Assembly (NCBI RefSeq): GCF_014696355.1
Contig: NZ_JACJQA010000028.1
Location: forward strand, 186,001 to 250,000
Direction of reading: 5' to 3'
From: Pseudanabaena sp. FACHB-1998
GTDB taxonomy: Bacteria > Cyanobacteriota > Cyanobacteriia > Pseudanabaenales > Pseudanabaenaceae
DNA length: 64,000 nt
The position numbers and the translations under genes were made by a program. Below, one piece after another: positions 6,358 to 21,010 of this stretch (its first letter is position 1; each line of letters opens with the position of its first letter). The notes under the pieces were generated by a model. It did no database searches. It saw only the letters and a list, made by a program, of their open reading frames with translations, and was not told the origin of the DNA.

Positions 6358-7071
6358 TTAAGAAATTTCGCGAATTTGGGGCTTACCATCGACAAATTCA
6401 CCAACCAAAATCAGATCGGTAACGCCGACAAATAGACCATTTTCCACAACACCTGGGATGTTATTTAAAGTCTTTTCTAATTCCGCCGCATCCGCGATCG
6501 CTTCAAAAGTCACATCAAGCACCATATTGCCTTGATCGGTAATGACGGGGCCATCCTTCTTCACACCCATTCTCAAGTCTGGCTTACCGCCTAGTTTTTC
6601 AACGGCTCGCGTCACTGGCGCAACTGCCATCGGCAACACTTCAATCGGTACAGCAAAGGTCGAACCCAGCTTGTCTACTAATTTCGACTCATCCACGACT
6701 ACGATAAACAGTGAAGCAAGAGAATCAACAACTTTTTCACGGGTATGGGCTGCGCCACCACCCTTAATCAAAGTCTTATGAGGATCAACTTCGTCCGCAC
6801 CATCGATCGCCACATCAACGCGATCGACATCATCCAGACTACGGATCGGAATACCATATTTTTTGCCTAAAACTGATGCTTGGAAGGAGGTGGGAATGCC
6901 CACAATATCCTTAAGTTCACCAGCCGCTATCCGTCTACCTAGCTCTTCGATCGCAAAAGCAGTAGTTGAGCCAGTACCTAAGCCTACGACCATCCCAGAC
7001 TGCACTCGTTGCGCCGCCGCAATCCCAACTTCTTGTTTTAACTTTTTAATATCTTCAGCAGAAATACTCAT
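6358..7071 (-). CDS. rpiA: Ribose-5-phosphate isomerase A
   Basis: A 237-residue enzyme interconverting ribose 5-phosphate and ribulose 5-phosphate in the Calvin and pentose phosphate cycles. The phosphate-binding loop [16 protein letters not shown] lies near residue 31. [24 protein letters not shown] near residues 90-115 holds the active-site Asp and Lys. [11 protein letters not shown] and [10 protein letters not shown] are family landmarks. The length is normal and the start ATG is followed by [16 protein letters not shown], a typical N-terminus. The gene is divergent from the cyclase gene downstream in the window. Confidence 0.97.
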
Positions 7072-7223
7072 TAGAAATACTTATTTATAACTTTTAAAGC
7101 AGTACTTTTAATCCTATCGCACCATGCGAGACAAGAAGACATCAACTTAATGGGAAGGTCATTATATCGCTCTGATCTCCTTAAGTTGGGATTAAGTGCT
7201 ATTTATTAAAGCCAATTACAATA

Positions 7224-8006
7224 TTGCTACAAAGCTTGGGAGAGTCAAAAATCGCTTTGGCTAACTATACTCATTCAGGGGTTTTACAAGCCATAGAAAA
7301 TGGAATCAATCCTCTTACTCTGACCCCCCGATATACCGAAAAAATTATTTTCTTTGCAGATATTATGGGCTTTGCCAGTATGACTGAGAAATTGCAAGTG
7401 ACCGAAGTTGTGGAATTACTCAATCAATTTTTTACGATCTGCACTTCAGAAATTGCCGCTAAAGGAGGTGAAGTTACGAAGTTTATAGGCGATTGCGTGA
7501 TGGCATATTTCGATGGTGATAAGGCGAATGAAGCTTTACAAGCCAGTCTCGATATTCTCTCAGAGTTAGAGGTTTTACGCGATCGATCGCCTGTTAATAG
7601 CCCGTTGCGAGTTCTCTATGTTGGAATTGGGCTATCTAAAGGAACAGTTCTAGAAGGAAATATAGGTTCTCAAACAAAAAAAGAGTATGCAATCATCGGC
7701 GATGCAGTTAATGTTGCCGCCAGAATCGAATCTTTAACCAGAAAGTTAAATAGATTTTTAGTGTTTTCAGCAGCAGTAAGAGAAGGACTTAACGATCGCT
7801 GGGAATTATTAAAAATGGGTGATTTCTATGCTAAAGGAAGAGAAGCGATCGTGGAGGTATATTCGATTGACGATCCTTTGGCATCTCAAAAATCAGATTT
7901 TCATAATCTAAAACAAGAGATTAACGAGCAGCTTGAACTCATAGGAAAGCAAACTCTAGCATCTTACAAACAACGCAAAACCCTATTTAAGCTATACGAT
8001 CGCTAA
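7224..8006 (+). CDS. Class III adenylate cyclase, BLUF-less paralogue of the downstream photoactivated cyclase
   Basis: A 260-residue cyclase catalytic domain. It aligns without gaps to residues 111 onwards of the BLUF cyclase at 8200-9261, through the same linker helix and C-terminal tail. The two metal-binding Asp residues (D46 in FFADIMGF, D90 in KFIGDCVMAYF) and NVAARIE are present, so the domain looks catalytic. There is no ATG before the catalytic Asp: the frame opens at a stop at 7182 and the first usable codon is TTG at 7224. In-frame codons just upstream still read PITILL, matching PIKILL of the paralogue, so the BLUF domain was lost from the 5' side. Many synonymous differences with strong protein conservation suggest long purifying selection. 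A residue tied to adenine recognition, Thr266 of the paralogue, is Ala here. It may be functional from TTG or a recent relic. Confidence 0.7.
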   Translation: MLQSLGESKIALANYTHSGVLQAIENGINPLTLTPRYTEKIIFFADIMGFASMTEKLQVTEVVELLNQFFTICTSEIAAKGGEVTKFIGDCVMAYFDGDKANEALQASLDILSELEVLRDRSPVNSPLRVLYVGIGLSKGTVLEGNIGSQTKKEYAIIGDAVNVAARIESLTRKLNRFLVFSAAVREGLNDRWELLKMGDFYAKGREAIVEVYSIDDPLASQKSDFHNLKQEINEQLELIGKQTLASYKQRKTLFKLYDR

Positions 8007-8199
8007 TAACAATCCCAGACCTATGCGCTCAGAAGCAGTAATATAGAATATAGGAAGAAATATTTACGCCGTATTGCTTATAACCCTTCTCTCCTCATTT
8101 GCGTTACAAGTAGTAAAGGAGCTTAATTGTTTCTTCTTCTACCCAACTATATAATATCTCTTTAATCAATTTTTTTCATAAAAATAACCTCTCAATTTC

Positions 8200-9261
8200 A
8201 TGAAAAGGCTAACTTATATTAGTAGCTTCTCGCGATCGCTTAGCAAAAGAGAAATTGAAGCCATTGGGCATATTTCTCAAACTAATAATTCTAGGGAAGG
8301 AATTACAGGGGTTTTATTAAGCTGTAACAGCATTTTCTTTCAAATTTTAGAAGGCGATGAAGACTGCATTGATCGGCTGTATGAGAAGATTTTACGAGAT
8401 GATCGCCACAATGGCATTTTATGCCTGAAATCTGAACAAAATGTTTCAACGCGTAAATTTCCTGACTGGTCAATGGAAGTTATTGTTCTTGATGAAAATA
8501 ATGACATTCTCTTGCAACCAATTAAAATTCTTTTGCAAACTTTAGGTGAATCTCAAACTATTCTGGCTAGCTATACTCAATCGGGAGTTTTGCAAGCAAT
8601 TGAAAATGGGATTAATCCCCTCACCCTTAAGCCCCGCTATAGCGAGAAAATCATCCTATTTGCGGATATTATCTCCTTCTCTAGTATTACCGAAAAACTA
8701 CAGGTTGCGGAGGTGGTGGAACTCCTCAATCAATTTTTTACAATTTGTACCAATGCGATCGCCTCAAAAGGTGGCGAAGTCACAAAATTTATCGGGGACT
8801 GTGTCATGGCATATTTTGAAGGCGATCGCGCCAACGAAGCAGTCCAAGCAAGCTTAGAAATTCTCTCAGAGCTAGAAATCTTACGCAGTCACTCCCCTGC
8901 CCATAGTCCTCTATGTGTTCTCTATACAGGTATCGGCATTTCTAAGGGAATTGTTTTAGAAGGAAATATTGGTTCTCAAACTAAAAAGGAATATACAGTC
9001 ATAGGCGATGCTGTGAATGTTGCATCGAGGTTAGAAGCGATCACTAGAAAGCTCAATCGCTTTTTAGTATTTTCGGCGGATGTGCGCTTAGGTTTAAGCG
9101 ATCGCTGGAAACCTGTTCGGCTGGGAGATTTTCATACTAAAGGTAGAGATGAAATCGTAGAAGTTTACTCCATTGATGACTTTCTCACTTTTCAAAAGTC
9201 AGATTTTCGTAAGCTCAAGCAAGAGATCCGCCAACATTTAGACTTGATTAGCTGCCAATAG
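8200..9261 (+). CDS. BLUF photoactivated adenylate cyclase (OaPAC-type)
   Basis: A 353-residue protein with an N-terminal BLUF flavin domain (about 1-95), a linker helix (about 105-135) and a class III cyclase domain (about 148-325). The start MKRLTYIS and the whole layout closely match the Oscillatoria acuminata photoactivated cyclase. BLUF photocycle residues are all present: Tyr6, Asn30, Gln48, Trp90 and Met92. The cyclase metal ligands Asp156 and Asp200 are present, with Lys196, Thr266, Asn273 and Arg277 in the expected substrate and transition-state positions; the Lys/Thr pair is the cyanobacterial adenine-recognition type. The inferred role is blue-light-stimulated cAMP production, a soluble homodimer using FAD. 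A cAMP effector is not visible nearby. Confidence 0.93.
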   Translation: MKRLTYISSFSRSLSKREIEAIGHISQTNNSREGITGVLLSCNSIFFQILEGDEDCIDRLYEKILRDDRHNGILCLKSEQNVSTRKFPDWSMEVIVLDENNDILLQPIKILLQTLGESQTILASYTQSGVLQAIENGINPLTLKPRYSEKIILFADIISFSSITEKLQVAEVVELLNQFFTICTNAIASKGGEVTKFIGDCVMAYFEGDRANEAVQASLEILSELEILRSHSPAHSPLCVLYTGIGISKGIVLEGNIGSQTKKEYTVIGDAVNVASRLEAITRKLNRFLVFSADVRLGLSDRWKPVRLGDFHTKGRDEIVEVYSIDDFLTFQKSDFRKLKQEIRQHLDLISCQ

Positions 9262-14164: not shown

Positions 14165-14443
14165 CAAAGTGAGAAGTCCTCGTTGCAGTTTAATAGTTTT
14201 GGCGGATAGACAAAAGTTAAGTTTAATGTGTGATTTCGATTTAAAGGCAAAAAAAATCTAATATAGTAATTAAGAGAACATCTATGTAGTCTCTCCTTTT
14301 ATAGCTTTTAGGCAAAGTACCCATGAAGTAATTAGCAACTGAGTTTGTAGCTTAGTAGCTGGAATTAAATGAGAATTGACTATCAATTTGCGTAAGGGGA
14401 ATGTGAGGCTCATTCACACTCATTTGGACGGGAGGTGGAAACC

Positions 14444-15673
14444 GTGCAAGGTAAATTTCACAACCAACAACTGCTGGCTCTGTTAAAAAAACTAGAGAGT
14501 ATAGCCTTTTCGGGTACTGTCAACCTCGATTTAGAAATCAAGGATGAGCATTTATCCAAATGTATTTTGGCTTGGCGCAATGGCTTACTCATGTATGCAG
14601 TGCCATGCTTACCAGACATTCATGCAATTATTGACTTTCTCGAACATAAATTGCATCGTCAATGGATTGCTCCAGCCGTGGTATTTGCTTCGCGACAACT
14701 TAAGGATGAACATTCAACCCAAGAATTGATCGAACGCCTGATCGCTATGGAACTGTTTACATGGGGAGAGATTGAAGCAGTTTTCTATGCTCAGACGATT
14801 GTGCGCTTGGAACAGATTTGGGAATGTGGGGGAAGTTTTAAGATCGAAAAAAATGTCAATTTGGAACTACGGAGCGCATGGAAAGTTGGGGATCTCTTAT
14901 TAGAACTTGCTCACCGCAAAGATCGTTGGGCGGCTATTAGGTCGTTGATCCCCTCTATGAAGCTAATTCCTACGATATCGACAAAAACGGGATCGTCGCC
15001 CATGCCTCCTAGCGTCAAGAAGCATTTGATGGAATGGGTGGATGGAAAGCGATCGCTCTGTGATATTTCGCAAAGTTTAGATAAAGATCCTTTGCAAATC
15101 GCGCAGTCCTACGCTAAATGGGCAAGGGAAAAATGGGTTAATTTCATTTCCGAAGAAACTAACGCGATGCCATTGATTTTGGCGATCGATGATAGTGCAG
15201 TAGTGCAGCAAATGATTCAACGCACGCTCTCTTCTTTTTGTCGAGTTGCCGTGGCGAGTAATGCTGTGGATGGACTAGGTGTAATGTATCACCAGCCAGT
15301 GAAGTTACTATTGCTGGATGTGATGATGCCTGAAATTGATGGATTAGAAGTTTGCCGCACAATTCGCCGTATGCCTCAGTTTACCGATTTGCCGATCATT
15401 ATGCTGACGGGCAAGGATGGCTTCTTTGACAAGATGAAAGGCAAAATGGCTGGCTCCAATGAATATATTACGAAGCCCTTTGAAGCCGAAAATCTCAAGC
15501 AGTTAGTACGCCAATACCTCCATTTACCCACGCCTTCTCCGAAGACTGAAGCCCAGCCAGACAGGCAAGATCTAGGGCATCAGCAAAATATGGTGAAGTC
15601 GTCACCAACTTGTACGCTAAAGGATACGCCGCAGGATCAGATGACAACACGAATTCAATATCAATGTAGTTAG
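14444..15673 (+). CDS. PatA/PixG-type response regulator (PATAN domain plus receiver)
   Basis: A 409-residue protein. Residues about 1-235 form a PATAN-like effector region; about 240-362 is a CheY-like receiver with DDSAVV, phosphoacceptor Asp in LLLLDVMMPEIDGLEV, and EYITKPFE. I chose the GTG at 14444 because GGGAGG lies seven bases upstream; a GTG at 14435 would overlap that site. This type of regulator opens cyanobacterial taxis operons (PixG, PilG, HmpA) and acts on type IV pili. CheW follows after 18 bases. Confidence 0.88.
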   Translation: MQGKFHNQQLLALLKKLESIAFSGTVNLDLEIKDEHLSKCILAWRNGLLMYAVPCLPDIHAIIDFLEHKLHRQWIAPAVVFASRQLKDEHSTQELIERLIAMELFTWGEIEAVFYAQTIVRLEQIWECGGSFKIEKNVNLELRSAWKVGDLLLELAHRKDRWAAIRSLIPSMKLIPTISTKTGSSPMPPSVKKHLMEWVDGKRSLCDISQSLDKDPLQIAQSYAKWAREKWVNFISEETNAMPLILAIDDSAVVQQMIQRTLSSFCRVAVASNAVDGLGVMYHQPVKLLLLDVMMPEIDGLEVCRTIRRMPQFTDLPIIMLTGKDGFFDKMKGKMAGSNEYITKPFEAENLKQLVRQYLHLPTPSPKTEAQPDRQDLGHQQNMVKSSPTCTLKDTPQDQMTTRIQYQCS

Positions 15674-15691
15674 TGAGGCAATAGGGGCATC

Positions 15692-16777
15692 ATGTTATCT
15701 CAAGAACTTACCCAAAAATATTATGTAATCTTTTCACTGCATGGATTGTCCTACGGTATTGATGCAATGTCAGTGAAAGAGATTTTCTCATTGCCAGAAT
15801 TGGCGATCGCGATTGATGCTCCTGAAGATGTGGTGGGGCTGTTAAATCTACGGGGCAAGCTAGTACCAGTGATGGATTTAAACCGTCGCTTTGGATATCC
15901 TTTTCAAGAATACAAATTGTCGGATTCGGTGATTGTGATCGAGGAGGAAGGGGAACTGCTGGGGATTGTGGTTAATCAGGTGCGGGAGGTGATTTCTATA
16001 GATGCTGAAGCGATCGAAAATACGATTTACACGCGACATCCCTCACGCTTGATTAGTAGTGTCGCTAAGTTGGGCGCCGAGAATATTGCTTTACTCAAAT
16101 CAGAAGCATTATTCGAGTACACCAATGCTGTCTTAGAGATGTCTGCTCATGCGCCTAATAGTGCTGACAATGCAGATGTAGATAGGGAAGAAGTTGTCTT
16201 GCATCATTGGGTCGAAAAACAAGGCAATTTCTTTGATACCTTTTGTCCCCATACCACGCCGCAGGAACATCACACTTTTCATTTGCGTGCTGAGCAACTG
16301 ATGCAAGCGTCACAGCGCAACGATCTTATGGGTTTACGTCCCCTCGCCGTGGTCGGTTTGGGTGATGAATACTTCGGTTTAGATTTGGAGGTTGTCCGCG
16401 AATTTACCGAATTTCATAAAGTGACACCTATTCCCTGCTGTCCTGATCATGTGATTGGCAATATCAATTTGCGCGGCGAAACCGTGACGCTGATTGATAT
16501 TCGTCGCGCTCTGCATATGCAGATTGACGAACACCATCCCACTTCTAAGGCGATCGTGGTTCATATTGACGAGCTGGTTATGGGGATTCCTGTGGAGAGG
16601 GTGTTTGATGTGCTGTATTTGCAAAAGAGCGACATCAAGCCCAATCCGATGGCAACCAGTGACGGCGATCGCGATTATTTACAAGGGACAGTTCTCTATC
16701 AAGAAAAAATGATGGGAATTTTGAATCTTGCCAAGATTTTCGCGGAGGGGAATCTTTCGGTGAATGAGGAGGTATAG
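15692..16777 (+). CDS. Chemotaxis adaptor with two CheW domains
   Basis: A 361-residue protein made of two consecutive CheW-like domains. The first spans about 8-150 (YYVIFSLHGLSYGIDAMSVK, GLLNLRGKLVPVMDLNRRFG); the second about 210-355 (LAVVGLGDEYFGLDLEVVRE, IGNINLRGETVTLIDIRRAL). Each carries the N-[IL]-RG core. CheW couples receptors to CheA. Tandem CheW proteins could bridge more than one kinase or receptor in an array; that is inference. The gene lies between the PATAN regulator and the receptor gene. Confidence 0.93.
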   Translation: MLSQELTQKYYVIFSLHGLSYGIDAMSVKEIFSLPELAIAIDAPEDVVGLLNLRGKLVPVMDLNRRFGYPFQEYKLSDSVIVIEEEGELLGIVVNQVREVISIDAEAIENTIYTRHPSRLISSVAKLGAENIALLKSEALFEYTNAVLEMSAHAPNSADNADVDREEVVLHHWVEKQGNFFDTFCPHTTPQEHHTFHLRAEQLMQASQRNDLMGLRPLAVVGLGDEYFGLDLEVVREFTEFHKVTPIPCCPDHVIGNINLRGETVTLIDIRRALHMQIDEHHPTSKAIVVHIDELVMGIPVERVFDVLYLQKSDIKPNPMATSDGDRDYLQGTVLYQEKMMGILNLAKIFAEGNLSVNEEV

Positions 16778-16853
16778 GGAATTACGAATTGATTTGCTAC
16801 TTCAAGACTGATAACTCGAACTGAATAATTTTAGATTAATTGGGGCTAAGACT

Positions 16854-18305
16854 ATGTTTAACAATTTGAAACTCAGGGGCAAAATGCTCGTTGGCTATTC
16901 TGTGCCAGTAGCTTTAATCACAGGGCTGGCGATCGGCGTATACACCACTTCGCAAACTGTGGGTAAGAACTTTGAACACGCATTGGTGGCTACCGATCGC
17001 GCTAGAGTTTCCGACGCCTTGGAATTAAGGGTTTCGCAGATTGCTCGCCAATCACGGGGCTATGCCCTCACCACAGACAAGGAGTTATTGAATCGCTATG
17101 AAGGTGGCGTAAAGACTTTGAATGAAGTCCAAGCAAAGGCTTTGGCATTGGTCAAAGATGCGATACCTGAACAAAAGGAACGCATGACTAAGATGGTGGC
17201 TTTTAGTGAGCAGTATGAAAAAATTACTCGCAGTCAGGTTGATGCGGCTAGAGTCGGCAACCGTAAAGTGGTTTTGGATACTGTAGAACAGGGCGCAGAA
17301 CTCCTGAAATCTTTTGAGGCGGTGATGAAGGAGTTTGACGGTCGCCAAGCTGAGGTGGTTAAGGAAGCAGAAGCCACCACTAAGAATGCTTTGGGGTTAT
17401 TGGTTACGATGTCAGTACTTGGTGCTATGGCTTCTCTAGTGATTGCTTTGGTGGTTGCTTTTGTGATTTCTTCAGCGATCGCCAATACCCTCAATCAATC
17501 TGCCAGTGAGATCGCTAGTTCTTCGGCACAGATTGCCAGCGCCGTCGAAGAGCAGGAGCGCACCGTCTCGCAACAGGCAAGCTCGGTCAATGAAACCTCA
17601 ACCACGATGGGCGAACTTGGCACATCTTCGCGCCAATCCTCAGAACAAGCGGAAGTCTCAGCATCTGGCGCACGCCATGCCCTCTCGCTCACCGAAAGCG
17701 GCACAAAAGCAGTCCGTCAAACCCTTGATGAGATGACTACCCTTAAGGATAAAGTCGGCGCGATCGCGGAACAAATTTTGCGACTCAGTGAGCAAACTAA
17801 TCAGATCGGTAATATTTCGGGACTTGTGGGCGACTTGGCAAATCAAACTAATATGCTGGCTCTGAATGCTGCTGTAGAAGCCGCCCGTGCTGGCGATCAT
17901 GGTAAAGGCTTTGCGGTAGTTGCGGAAGAGATTCGTAAACTCGCCGATCAAAGCAAGAAGTCTGCTGAAAAAATCAACACCCTTGTTTCCGACATTCAAA
18001 CGGCGATTAACTCAACCGTGATGGTTACCGATGAAGGTAATAAGACCGTCAACGAAGGTCTATCCCTCGCTCGCAGCATGGCTGAAGCATTCACAGGCGT
18101 CTCGGATTCTATTAATAACGTCTTTATCAGCAGTCAACAGATTTCGCTAAATGCCAAACAACAGGCAGTGGCAATCAATCAAGTTGTGGAAGCGATGAAT
18201 GCGATTAACCTTGGCGCAAGGGAAACCGCTTCGGGCGTATCGCAGATCAAGGTCAGCACCCATCAACTTAATGCGGCGGCGCAGAAGTTACAGGCAGTGG
18301 TGTAG
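16854..18305 (+). CDS. Methyl-accepting chemotaxis protein without HAMP domain
   Basis: A 483-residue receptor. One membrane helix is near 10-30, a helical ligand or sensor segment about 31-180 (4HB-like), and a second helix about 182-207. The signalling domain starts almost at once, without a recognisable HAMP module. The hairpin tip reads [20 protein letters not shown] followed by [18 protein letters not shown], the conserved CheA/CheW contact. Candidate methylation glutamates occur in the flanking coiled coil (SAVEEQERT). Cyanobacterial PilJ/PixJ receptors are usually larger; this one has no GAF photosensor. The ligand is unknown. Confidence 0.93.
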
Positions 18306-18406
18306 ACCCTCACCCCTAGCCCCTCTCCCTTAATGGGAGAGGGGGACTAGAAAGTTGATGGCTCCCCTTCTCCCCTAGTGGGAGAAGGGGCTGGGGGATG
18401 AGGGGC
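18306..18406. repeat. G/C-rich nested inverted repeat inside the chemotaxis operon
   Basis: Two hairpins, CCCTCTCCCTTAATGGGAGAGGG at about 18321-18343 and CCCCTTCTCCC...GGGAGAAGGGG at about 18364-18390, are enclosed by ACCCTCACCCCTAGCCCC and GGGGCTGGGGGATGAGGGG. This type of repeat is widespread in cyanobacterial genomes. Here it separates the receptor from CheA and may reduce or tune downstream expression. Confidence 0.85.
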
Positions 18407-18430
18407 AAGTATTAATAAGGAGTGCCTATT

Positions 18431-21010
18431 ATGTATATCCAAGATGAAGAACTGAGAAATGTCTTTAAGATCGCTAGTGAAGAACATATTCAGAAGTTAG
18501 AAGAAGACTTTCTATTTCTCGAAAAAAATCCACAGGATAAGGCGCATTTAGAGGAAGCATTGCGAGAAGCGCATACCCTTAAGGGTGATGCGCGGATGTT
18601 GGGCATTTCAGGCGTGGAGACGCTCACTCACCAAGTTGAGGATCTACTCGGAGCCGCGAAACGGGGAGAGTTAGAAATATCGGGCAAAATGCTCGATCGC
18701 CTGTATTTAGGACTAGATGCGATCAGGCAGTTGGTGCATGAGGCGATCACTGATGAGGAAGCGCGAATTAGTATTTTTGAAGTGCTGGCGCAGTTAATGG
18801 GAGCTGAGGTGCAGGAGGCGGAGCCGAGCAAGGAAAACGATCTTTTTAACGATCCCTTTGAAGATACTAGGGATGTGATGATGAATACGCCGCCTGTGGT
18901 CGAAAATTTATCATCATTGCCAAATAATATTGCGCCTAGCCCTGAACTGGTGAGCCTCAATAGTGTGAATGGGAATGGTCAAAAACTTAATGGCAATGGT
19001 CATCAAAATAATGGCAATAAAGGCGTAGCGATCGCACCTTTGTCCGAAAGTTCTACCAACGCCAAAACTAACCCCACCATCCCTGCGGCTCCTCCCCTAA
19101 ATCCTAGTCCTCAAGTCACCCAATCAGCGCGATCGCCTGAAAGTGCAACCCATCCTGATCTGCGATCGGCTAATGGCAATGTTAATAGTACTAATGTCAT
19201 TAACAACAATTTAACCGCCACCTTTAGCGAAACCGATAAATATCGCATTGATACAATTCGCGTTGATCCTCAGAAGCTCGATGCCTTGATGACCCAAGTT
19301 GGTGAGTTAACCGTTACCAAAATTCGCATCTCCCAAAGACTTACGGAAATTGAAGAAATTATTAGCCTCTGGGAAGAATGGAGCCGCGATACCTTTGTCA
19401 GCCGCCTTGCTCTCGAAAAAAATGGCAAAGCTCTATCTGATATTTCTCTGGGTAAAGAAGGCGATCGCCATAGCCCTAAAAACAGCAACTTCCACCGCCG
19501 CCTCGAAGAAAGACTCGATCGCCTTGGGAATCAACTCAACCATCTCCGCCGCAATACTTACGAAGACACGGCGCGACTCGACTCGATCGCAGGGGATCTC
19601 AAGGAAGGTATTCGCACTCTTAGACTATTGCCTCTTGCCACCGTCTTTAATCTATTTCCGCGCATGGTGCGCGATCTGGCACGACAACAAGCCAAAGAGG
19701 TCGAGCTAATCATCGAAGGCGGCGACACCTCCGCCGATAAGCATATTCTTGAAGAGATCAAAGATCCTTTGATGCACCTGATCCGCAATGCGATCGATCA
19801 TGGTATCGAGTTACCTTCCGAGCGCGAAAAAGCTGGCAAGCCCAGAGTTGCCACGATCCGCCTCAAGGGTTTGCAAAATGCCCGTAGCGTGATCATCGAA
19901 ATCAGTGACGATGGCAGAGGGCTGAACATAGACCAGATCCGCCAAGCTGCTATCCAGCGCGGTATTTGTCGTGAAGAAGAACTAGCATCAATGTCGGAAG
20001 CACAAATTCACAATTTAGTCTTCACTTCGGGCTTTTCCACCCGCCTTGCGGTTACCCAAATGTCTGGGCGCGGCGTGGGCTTGGATGTAGTTCGCACCAA
20101 TATCGAACGACTCAAGGGCGATGTTTGGGTAGAATCTAGCGCTGGGCAGGGTTGTCAGTTCCGTATGCAGATTGACACCACCCTCGCCACTACCCATGTC
20201 CTGATTGCCGCCGTCAAAGATACGCCCTATGCCCTCCCTGTGGAATTTGTGCAAACTACGCGCCTGATTCCCCGTCAAGATATTTTTTCCATCGAAGGCA
20301 GTCACACGATTACGATCGATGAGCATCCAGTATCCGTGGCTTGGCTGTCGGACTTACTGGAATTAGATATCAGCGATCGCAACTTTAACCACAAGTCCTT
20401 GCCCTGCATCATCCTCAAAATCGGAGTCGAAAGATTAGGCTTAATTGTTGATGCTTTACTCGATGAGCAAGATGTCGTCATGAAGCAACAAAGCAAACTC
20501 CTCAAAAGGATTCGTAACGTCAGTGGCGCGACTATTTTAGGCACAGGCGAAGTCTGCATGGTACTCAACCCATCGGACTTATTAAAATCGGCGCGGAAAC
20601 GTGCAGGATTTGTCTCAACGAGTAAACTGTTAGAATCTGTACAACGCAAGAAAATAGTCTTAATGGTCGAAGATTCGATAACAGTCCGCACCCAAGTCAA
20701 ACGCATTTTCGAAAATGCGGGTTATGAAGTCATTGCCGCCGTTGACGGTTTAGATGGCTATGAAAAACTTCGCACCAAATCCGTTGATGCCGTAGTTTCT
20801 GACATTCAAATGCCGCACCTTGATGGGCTAGAACTCACCGCCCGCATCCGTCAGCACAAAGAATATACCGATCTGCCCGTAATTTTAGTTACATCCCTCG
20901 CTTCCGAAGAGGACAAACGCCGAGGTGTAGAGGTGGGAGCCAATGCCTATATCGTCAAGAGTGCCTTTGATCAAAATGTGCTTCTAGAGACATTAGGGAG
21001 GCTGATCTAA
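18431..21010 (+). CDS. cheA: Chemotaxis histidine kinase CheA with C-terminal CheY receiver
   Basis: An 859-residue hybrid kinase. Order: HPt domain (1-110, phosphoacceptor His48 in EAHTLKGDARM), a low-complexity Asn/Ser/Pro linker (about 140-270), dimerisation helices (about 280-400), HATPase (about 410-590; RNAIDHGIE, DDGRGL, GRGVGLDVV), CheW-like domain (about 595-725), and a receiver (about 735-857; MVEDSITVR, VVSDIQMPHLDGLEL). I use ATG at 18431 because AAGGAG is eight bases upstream; an in-frame GTG at 18422 overlaps it. CheB starts at the next base after the stop. Confidence 0.95.
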   Translation: MYIQDEELRNVFKIASEEHIQKLEEDFLFLEKNPQDKAHLEEALREAHTLKGDARMLGISGVETLTHQVEDLLGAAKRGELEISGKMLDRLYLGLDAIRQLVHEAITDEEARISIFEVLAQLMGAEVQEAEPSKENDLFNDPFEDTRDVMMNTPPVVENLSSLPNNIAPSPELVSLNSVNGNGQKLNGNGHQNNGNKGVAIAPLSESSTNAKTNPTIPAAPPLNPSPQVTQSARSPESATHPDLRSANGNVNSTNVINNNLTATFSETDKYRIDTIRVDPQKLDALMTQVGELTVTKIRISQRLTEIEEIISLWEEWSRDTFVSRLALEKNGKALSDISLGKEGDRHSPKNSNFHRRLEERLDRLGNQLNHLRRNTYEDTARLDSIAGDLKEGIRTLRLLPLATVFNLFPRMVRDLARQQAKEVELIIEGGDTSADKHILEEIKDPLMHLIRNAIDHGIELPSEREKAGKPRVATIRLKGLQNARSVIIEISDDGRGLNIDQIRQAAIQRGICREEELASMSEAQIHNLVFTSGFSTRLAVTQMSGRGVGLDVVRTNIERLKGDVWVESSAGQGCQFRMQIDTTLATTHVLIAAVKDTPYALPVEFVQTTRLIPRQDIFSIEGSHTITIDEHPVSVAWLSDLLELDISDRNFNHKSLPCIILKIGVERLGLIVDALLDEQDVVMKQQSKLLKRIRNVSGATILGTGEVCMVLNPSDLLKSARKRAGFVSTSKLLESVQRKKIVLMVEDSITVRTQVKRIFENAGYEVIAAVDGLDGYEKLRTKSVDAVVSDIQMPHLDGLELTARIRQHKEYTDLPVILVTSLASEEDKRRGVEVGANAYIVKSAFDQNVLLETLGRLI

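Follow-up and report, generated by a model that had tools for sequence, protein, structure and literature searches.

The open reading frame at 7224–8006 (+ strand) of the window, the whole stretch of 64,000 nucleotides that was analysed, encodes the linker helix and the cyclase domain of an OaPAC-type photoactivated adenylyl cyclase (PAC). It adjoins an intact PAC of the same type, a BLUF-cyclase of 353 aa referred to as copy 2 (8200–9261, + strand). Is a PAC gene that stands beside a complete one and has no light sensor of its own a working enzyme, a partner of its neighbour or a remnant? Counted from TTG at 7224, the first start codon, this truncated copy 1 has 260 codons, which cover about two thirds of the linker helix alpha-3, the cyclase domain and a copy-1-type C-terminal tail. 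The frame runs without stops from just past a TAA at 7182–7184 to the stop codon ending at 8006. Guanylate_cyc (PF00211, 70 bits), the class III cyclase catalytic domain, is its sole Pfam match; copy 2 has both BLUF and Guanylate_cyc. The preliminary description of this DNA stated that no ATG lies ahead of the catalytic Asp, and the first in-frame ATG is indeed codon 48 (7365–7367), after Asp46. The sole possible early in-frame ATG would be codon 10 (7251–7253, + strand), which is ATC (Ile) here versus ATG (Met), with GGGAGAG ahead of it, in the sister genomes. The start candidates that are left are all TTG.

The active site of the short frame is complete. Asp46, Lys86, Asp90, Asn163 and Arg167 (7359–7724, + strand), that is the two metal-binding Asp together with Lys, Asn and Arg, are all retained and fall in invariant or nearly invariant columns among 32 PACs. 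All 260 codons are free of stops and frameshifts, and none of the catalytic residues is damaged. The best solved relatives of both the short frame and copy 2 are the photoactivated adenylyl cyclases OaPAC of Oscillatoria acuminata (PDB 4yus, 5x4t) and bPAC of Beggiatoa (PDB 5m27). Residues 111 to 353 of OaPAC align with the short frame without gaps (structure comparison Z 28.0), and the two share the alpha-3 remnant, the cyclase domain and all catalytic residues. Unlike OaPAC, the short frame has no BLUF domain, lacks the first third of alpha-3, carries Ala in place of the adenine-recognition Thr and has a different C-terminal tail. The tail of OaPAC lowers activity (PMC6937261); the long copy-1 tail is retained in the short frame, with a sequence unlike that of OaPAC. 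With bPAC the short frame has the cyclase fold (Z 28.3) and the catalytic set in common, but not the BLUF domain, and whereas the bPAC cyclase domain alone (5mbg) is a laboratory truncation, the short frame is a natural one. If TTG 7224 is used, about 16 of the 24 residues of alpha-3 (residues 103–126 in OaPAC) are left, with a helix predicted at low confidence for residues 2–15. The first eight residues and the C-terminal tail of the structure model are likewise of low confidence.

The relatives of the window in the genome collection are Pseudanabaena, and comparison with them explains how the sensor was lost. The divergent left neighbour, rpiA (ribose-5-phosphate isomerase; 6358–7071, − strand), serves as a synteny anchor, as it is found at the same place beside PAC genes in most of the genus with 94–99% protein identity. 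The nearest orthologues of the short frame are the copy-1 PACs of the sister trio G020, G021 and G002, which, just like the short frame, have rpiA on one side and copy 2 on the other, show 96–97% protein identity in the shared part and also have Ala at the adenine position. They differ from the short frame in that the BLUF domain, the ATG start and a conserved upstream motif are all in place. Together with G023, four genomes thus hold intact BLUF orthologues at this locus, which bears out the earlier claim of a tandem cyclase that has lost its BLUF domain.

The window matches the intergenic DNA of the orthologues up to 7202 and the end of their BLUF domain from 7203. Across this junction (7202/7203, AGTGCTAT/TTATTAAAG) about 480–490 bp are missing relative to G002 and G020: the BLUF core, the ATG and roughly 180 bp of the upstream region. 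The junction shows no long direct repeat, and microhomology amounts to 1–2 bp at most. The codons at 7203–7223 (+ strand; LLKPITI) are left over from the end of the BLUF domain and the start of the linker helix and now precede every start codon. They read LLKPIT-ILLQ versus LLQPIK-ILLQ in copy 2, so the PITILL/PIKILL match noted before is real, and the end of homology, first placed near 7203, lies exactly there. One clean lineage-specific deletion removed the upstream motif, the start codon and the BLUF sensor of copy 1.

The rpiA-proximal part of the ancestral upstream region is retained at 7083–7202 (+ strand). As this region aligns to the intergenic DNA of the orthologues (L051, L053) with 83–84% identity, the surroundings of the TAA at 7182 were never coding. 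The stop codon of the preliminary description is therefore present and in frame, but it belongs to retained intergenic DNA, and an inactivating mutation within a BLUF relic is ruled out. A chance frame of 19 codons (7150–7209, ATG to TAA) lies here in a different frame and ends 14 bases ahead of TTG 7224. Relocation of the lost BLUF domain can also be dismissed, since the genome has, besides copy 2, just one BLUF domain, which belongs to a 152-aa frame on a different contig. As assemblers can collapse similar tandem genes, the truncation might be an artefact, and an upstream sequencing error had been put forward. A collapse would instead fuse the two similar BLUF regions, however, and the junction joins two unique stretches with no long repeat and lies well within a contig of 338 kb. 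A simple sequencing error is therefore unlikely, and we consider an assembly or sequencing artefact of any kind very improbable.

The deletion also reached the region in which signals for expression may lie. About 105–250 bp ahead of PAC genes we identified the motif TTACGC-NN-TAT-N-GCTGATTAC. With at most one mismatch, 16 of 26 Pseudanabaena genomes each hold a single occurrence of TTACGCNNTATNGCTGATTAC, upstream of PAC genes (at G002:C1:2841066–2841086 and likewise in 15 further genomes), and the reversed control of this search gave zero occurrences in the 26 genomes at the same threshold. The motif is a candidate promoter or regulator site of PAC genes in Pseudanabaena. A diverged form, TTACGCCGTATTGCTTATAACCCTT, lies ahead of copy 2 (8064–8088, + strand), and the copy-1 counterpart was removed by the deletion. 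A sigma-70 scan of 7000–8250 was uninformative (5 sites versus 3.7 expected), with no site on the + strand upstream of 7224. Because the deletion took both motif and start, and the ATG of codon 10 is now ATC, the short gene is left without its former control region and without an ATG.

The reading that we favour, at somewhat better than even probability, is that of a young, poorly expressed truncated gene. The frame at 7224–8006 is the 3′ remainder of a tandem PAC gene that underwent the lineage-specific and, on this reading, recent loss of those 480–490 bp. It would yield little or no transcript and protein, and its cyclase domain would have had too little time to decay. Judged as a pseudogene, it has lost the upstream motif and the ATG, while frame and catalytic residues are intact. 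The preliminary description had regarded intact BLUF orthologues together with frame-disrupting mutations as the mark of a simple relic; such orthologues exist, but the short frame carries no disrupting mutation.

If the chain is made from the TTG, it would be a class III cyclase with a shortened alpha-3 helix that could pair either with another such chain or with the PAC of copy 2. In the first case, homodimers held together by the remaining alpha-3 and the cyclase domains would make cAMP that is not tied to blue light. This would fit the retention of every catalytic residue, the match of the modelled cyclase domain to bPAC and OaPAC (Z about 28), the solved structure of the isolated bPAC cyclase domain and the purifying selection that acted, on average, on the sequence. 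On the other hand, the gene lacks its upstream motif and ATG and the protein the first third of alpha-3, and an altered alpha-3 may mean a dead enzyme, because the alpha-3 change L123R in bPAC abolishes both dark and light activity (PMC8522238). A working light-independent cyclase therefore seems doubtful to us.

The replacement at the adenine-recognition position had been taken as a hint of altered nucleotide specificity. The alignment confirms that Thr266 of copy 2 (Thr267 in bPAC) corresponds to Ala156 of the short frame (7689–7691, + strand), so that of the adenine-recognition Lys-Thr pair that marks PAC-type adenylyl cyclases the Lys is retained and the Thr replaced. Thr267 of bPAC is described as a major determinant of base recognition, and the T267Y variant is inactive (PMC8522238); we found no published test of Ala at this position. 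The same Ala is, however, present in the intact orthologues of G020, G021 and G002 and in the intact copy-2 PACs of G016, G022 and G017, with at least four Thr-to-Ala changes on the PAC tree, and the partner Lys86 is kept. As the three closest BLUF-intact orthologues share it, the change is older than the loss of BLUF, and a tie between the two is ruled out. Being both older and recurrent in complete PACs, Ala156 is no argument for a new specificity. We see no sign of one, and hold a cyclase of altered specificity to be highly unlikely.

Selection on the sequence could in principle separate a relic from a used gene. Copy 1 of the window differs from that of the sister trio by a dN of about 0.019 and a dS of about 0.39. 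In a codon model, omega was 0.042 on the window branch and 0.089 elsewhere, a difference that is not significant, and omega = 1 on the window branch was rejected (2dlnL 47). A neutral period of more than about 6–7% of the terminal branch of the window was rejected as well, while a shorter neutral end fits. Neutral decay through most of the branch is thereby ruled out, which leaves two options, a very recent deletion or selection on the short form. Purifying selection on the window branch is strong, but it is compatible with both. The long functional constraint proposed earlier thus holds for the gene lineage, but not necessarily for the period after the deletion. The dN/dS between the two copies, also proposed before, reflects a real synonymous divergence (dS saturated, dN 0.16), but as a comparison of paralogues it has no bearing on constraint after the loss. 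With a flat prior on deletion time, continued constraint is favoured roughly 25 to 1 by our own arithmetic on the branch-test values. We prefer the young remnant in spite of this, because relics that look intact are young and because the lost control region and start lower the prior for function.

Divergence along the locus is uneven. The dS to the sister trio is about 0.4 for copy 1 (7203–8142) versus about 0.9–1.4 for the flanking rpiA and cbiT. Copy 2 is a mosaic, with a dS to G002 and G021 of about 0.3 in its BLUF half and about 1.6 in its cyclase half, and the switch lies near the BLUF/cyclase border. Because copy 1 and the BLUF half of copy 2 are closer to the trio lineage than the flanks and the cyclase half of copy 2 are, an exchange with that lineage may have covered the stretch between about 7203 and about 8600. 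In that case the truncation could be a scar left where the exchange begins on its left side, and not the product of a deletion of its own.

The likeness of the two copies bears on a possible role of the short chain beside its neighbour. As described before, they align without gaps from the linker helix on (residues 1–243); identity is 75% in the cyclase domains and almost as high in the linker helices. In OaPAC, a dimer held together by its alpha-3 helices, activity goes up markedly only when both protomers are photoconverted, and it grows as the square of the fraction that is photoconverted (PMC10634658). Mixed dimers of the short chain and copy 2 would have one sensor each, and since both OaPAC protomers must be photoconverted (PMC10634658), they should respond weakly to light, the doubly lit state being out of reach. 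The short chain would in this case act as a regulatory subunit that lowers or reshapes the light response of copy 2, for which the adjacency of the two genes on one strand would be suitable. The arrangement has, however, been seen in a single genome and its expression is doubtful, and we judge such a subunit unlikely. That a light-blind chain pairs with the neighbouring intact PAC so that the pool of mixed dimers sets the blue-light threshold for cAMP by gene dosage is, in our view, distinctly unlikely. A chemotaxis-like operon (response regulator, CheW-like, MCP and CheA-like; 14435–21010) lies a few kb downstream of the PAC genes, and a link of light-made cAMP to motility is possible.

Two PAC lineages are found in the genus. 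Copy 2 is present in most genomes, while copy 1 forms a clean clade (SH-aLRT 99) in about ten. The short frame falls within this clade and has syntenic intact orthologues; it descends from a PAC gene although Pfam detects no BLUF domain in it. No other PAC without BLUF was seen among the PACs examined. An independent relic (L097; G018:C125:11753–11972) consists of only the last approximately 40 codons of copy 1, fused to DNA upstream of rpiA, and no further PAC was found in G018. In G025 (L098; contig C106) copy 1 is interrupted after codon 295, and the 885 bases before the break equal those of G023. To judge from these sequences, the copy-1 locus decays repeatedly.

A search of the literature on PAC pseudogenes and Pseudanabaena PACs gave nothing relevant. 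If the short chain is made, it would be a natural version of the designed PAC experiments in which one or both sensors are absent and the light response of mixed dimers is followed. If it is a relic, it shows a decay route of tandem photoreceptor genes and draws attention to the single-copy motif ahead of the PAC genes of Pseudanabaena, which is probably an element in their control.
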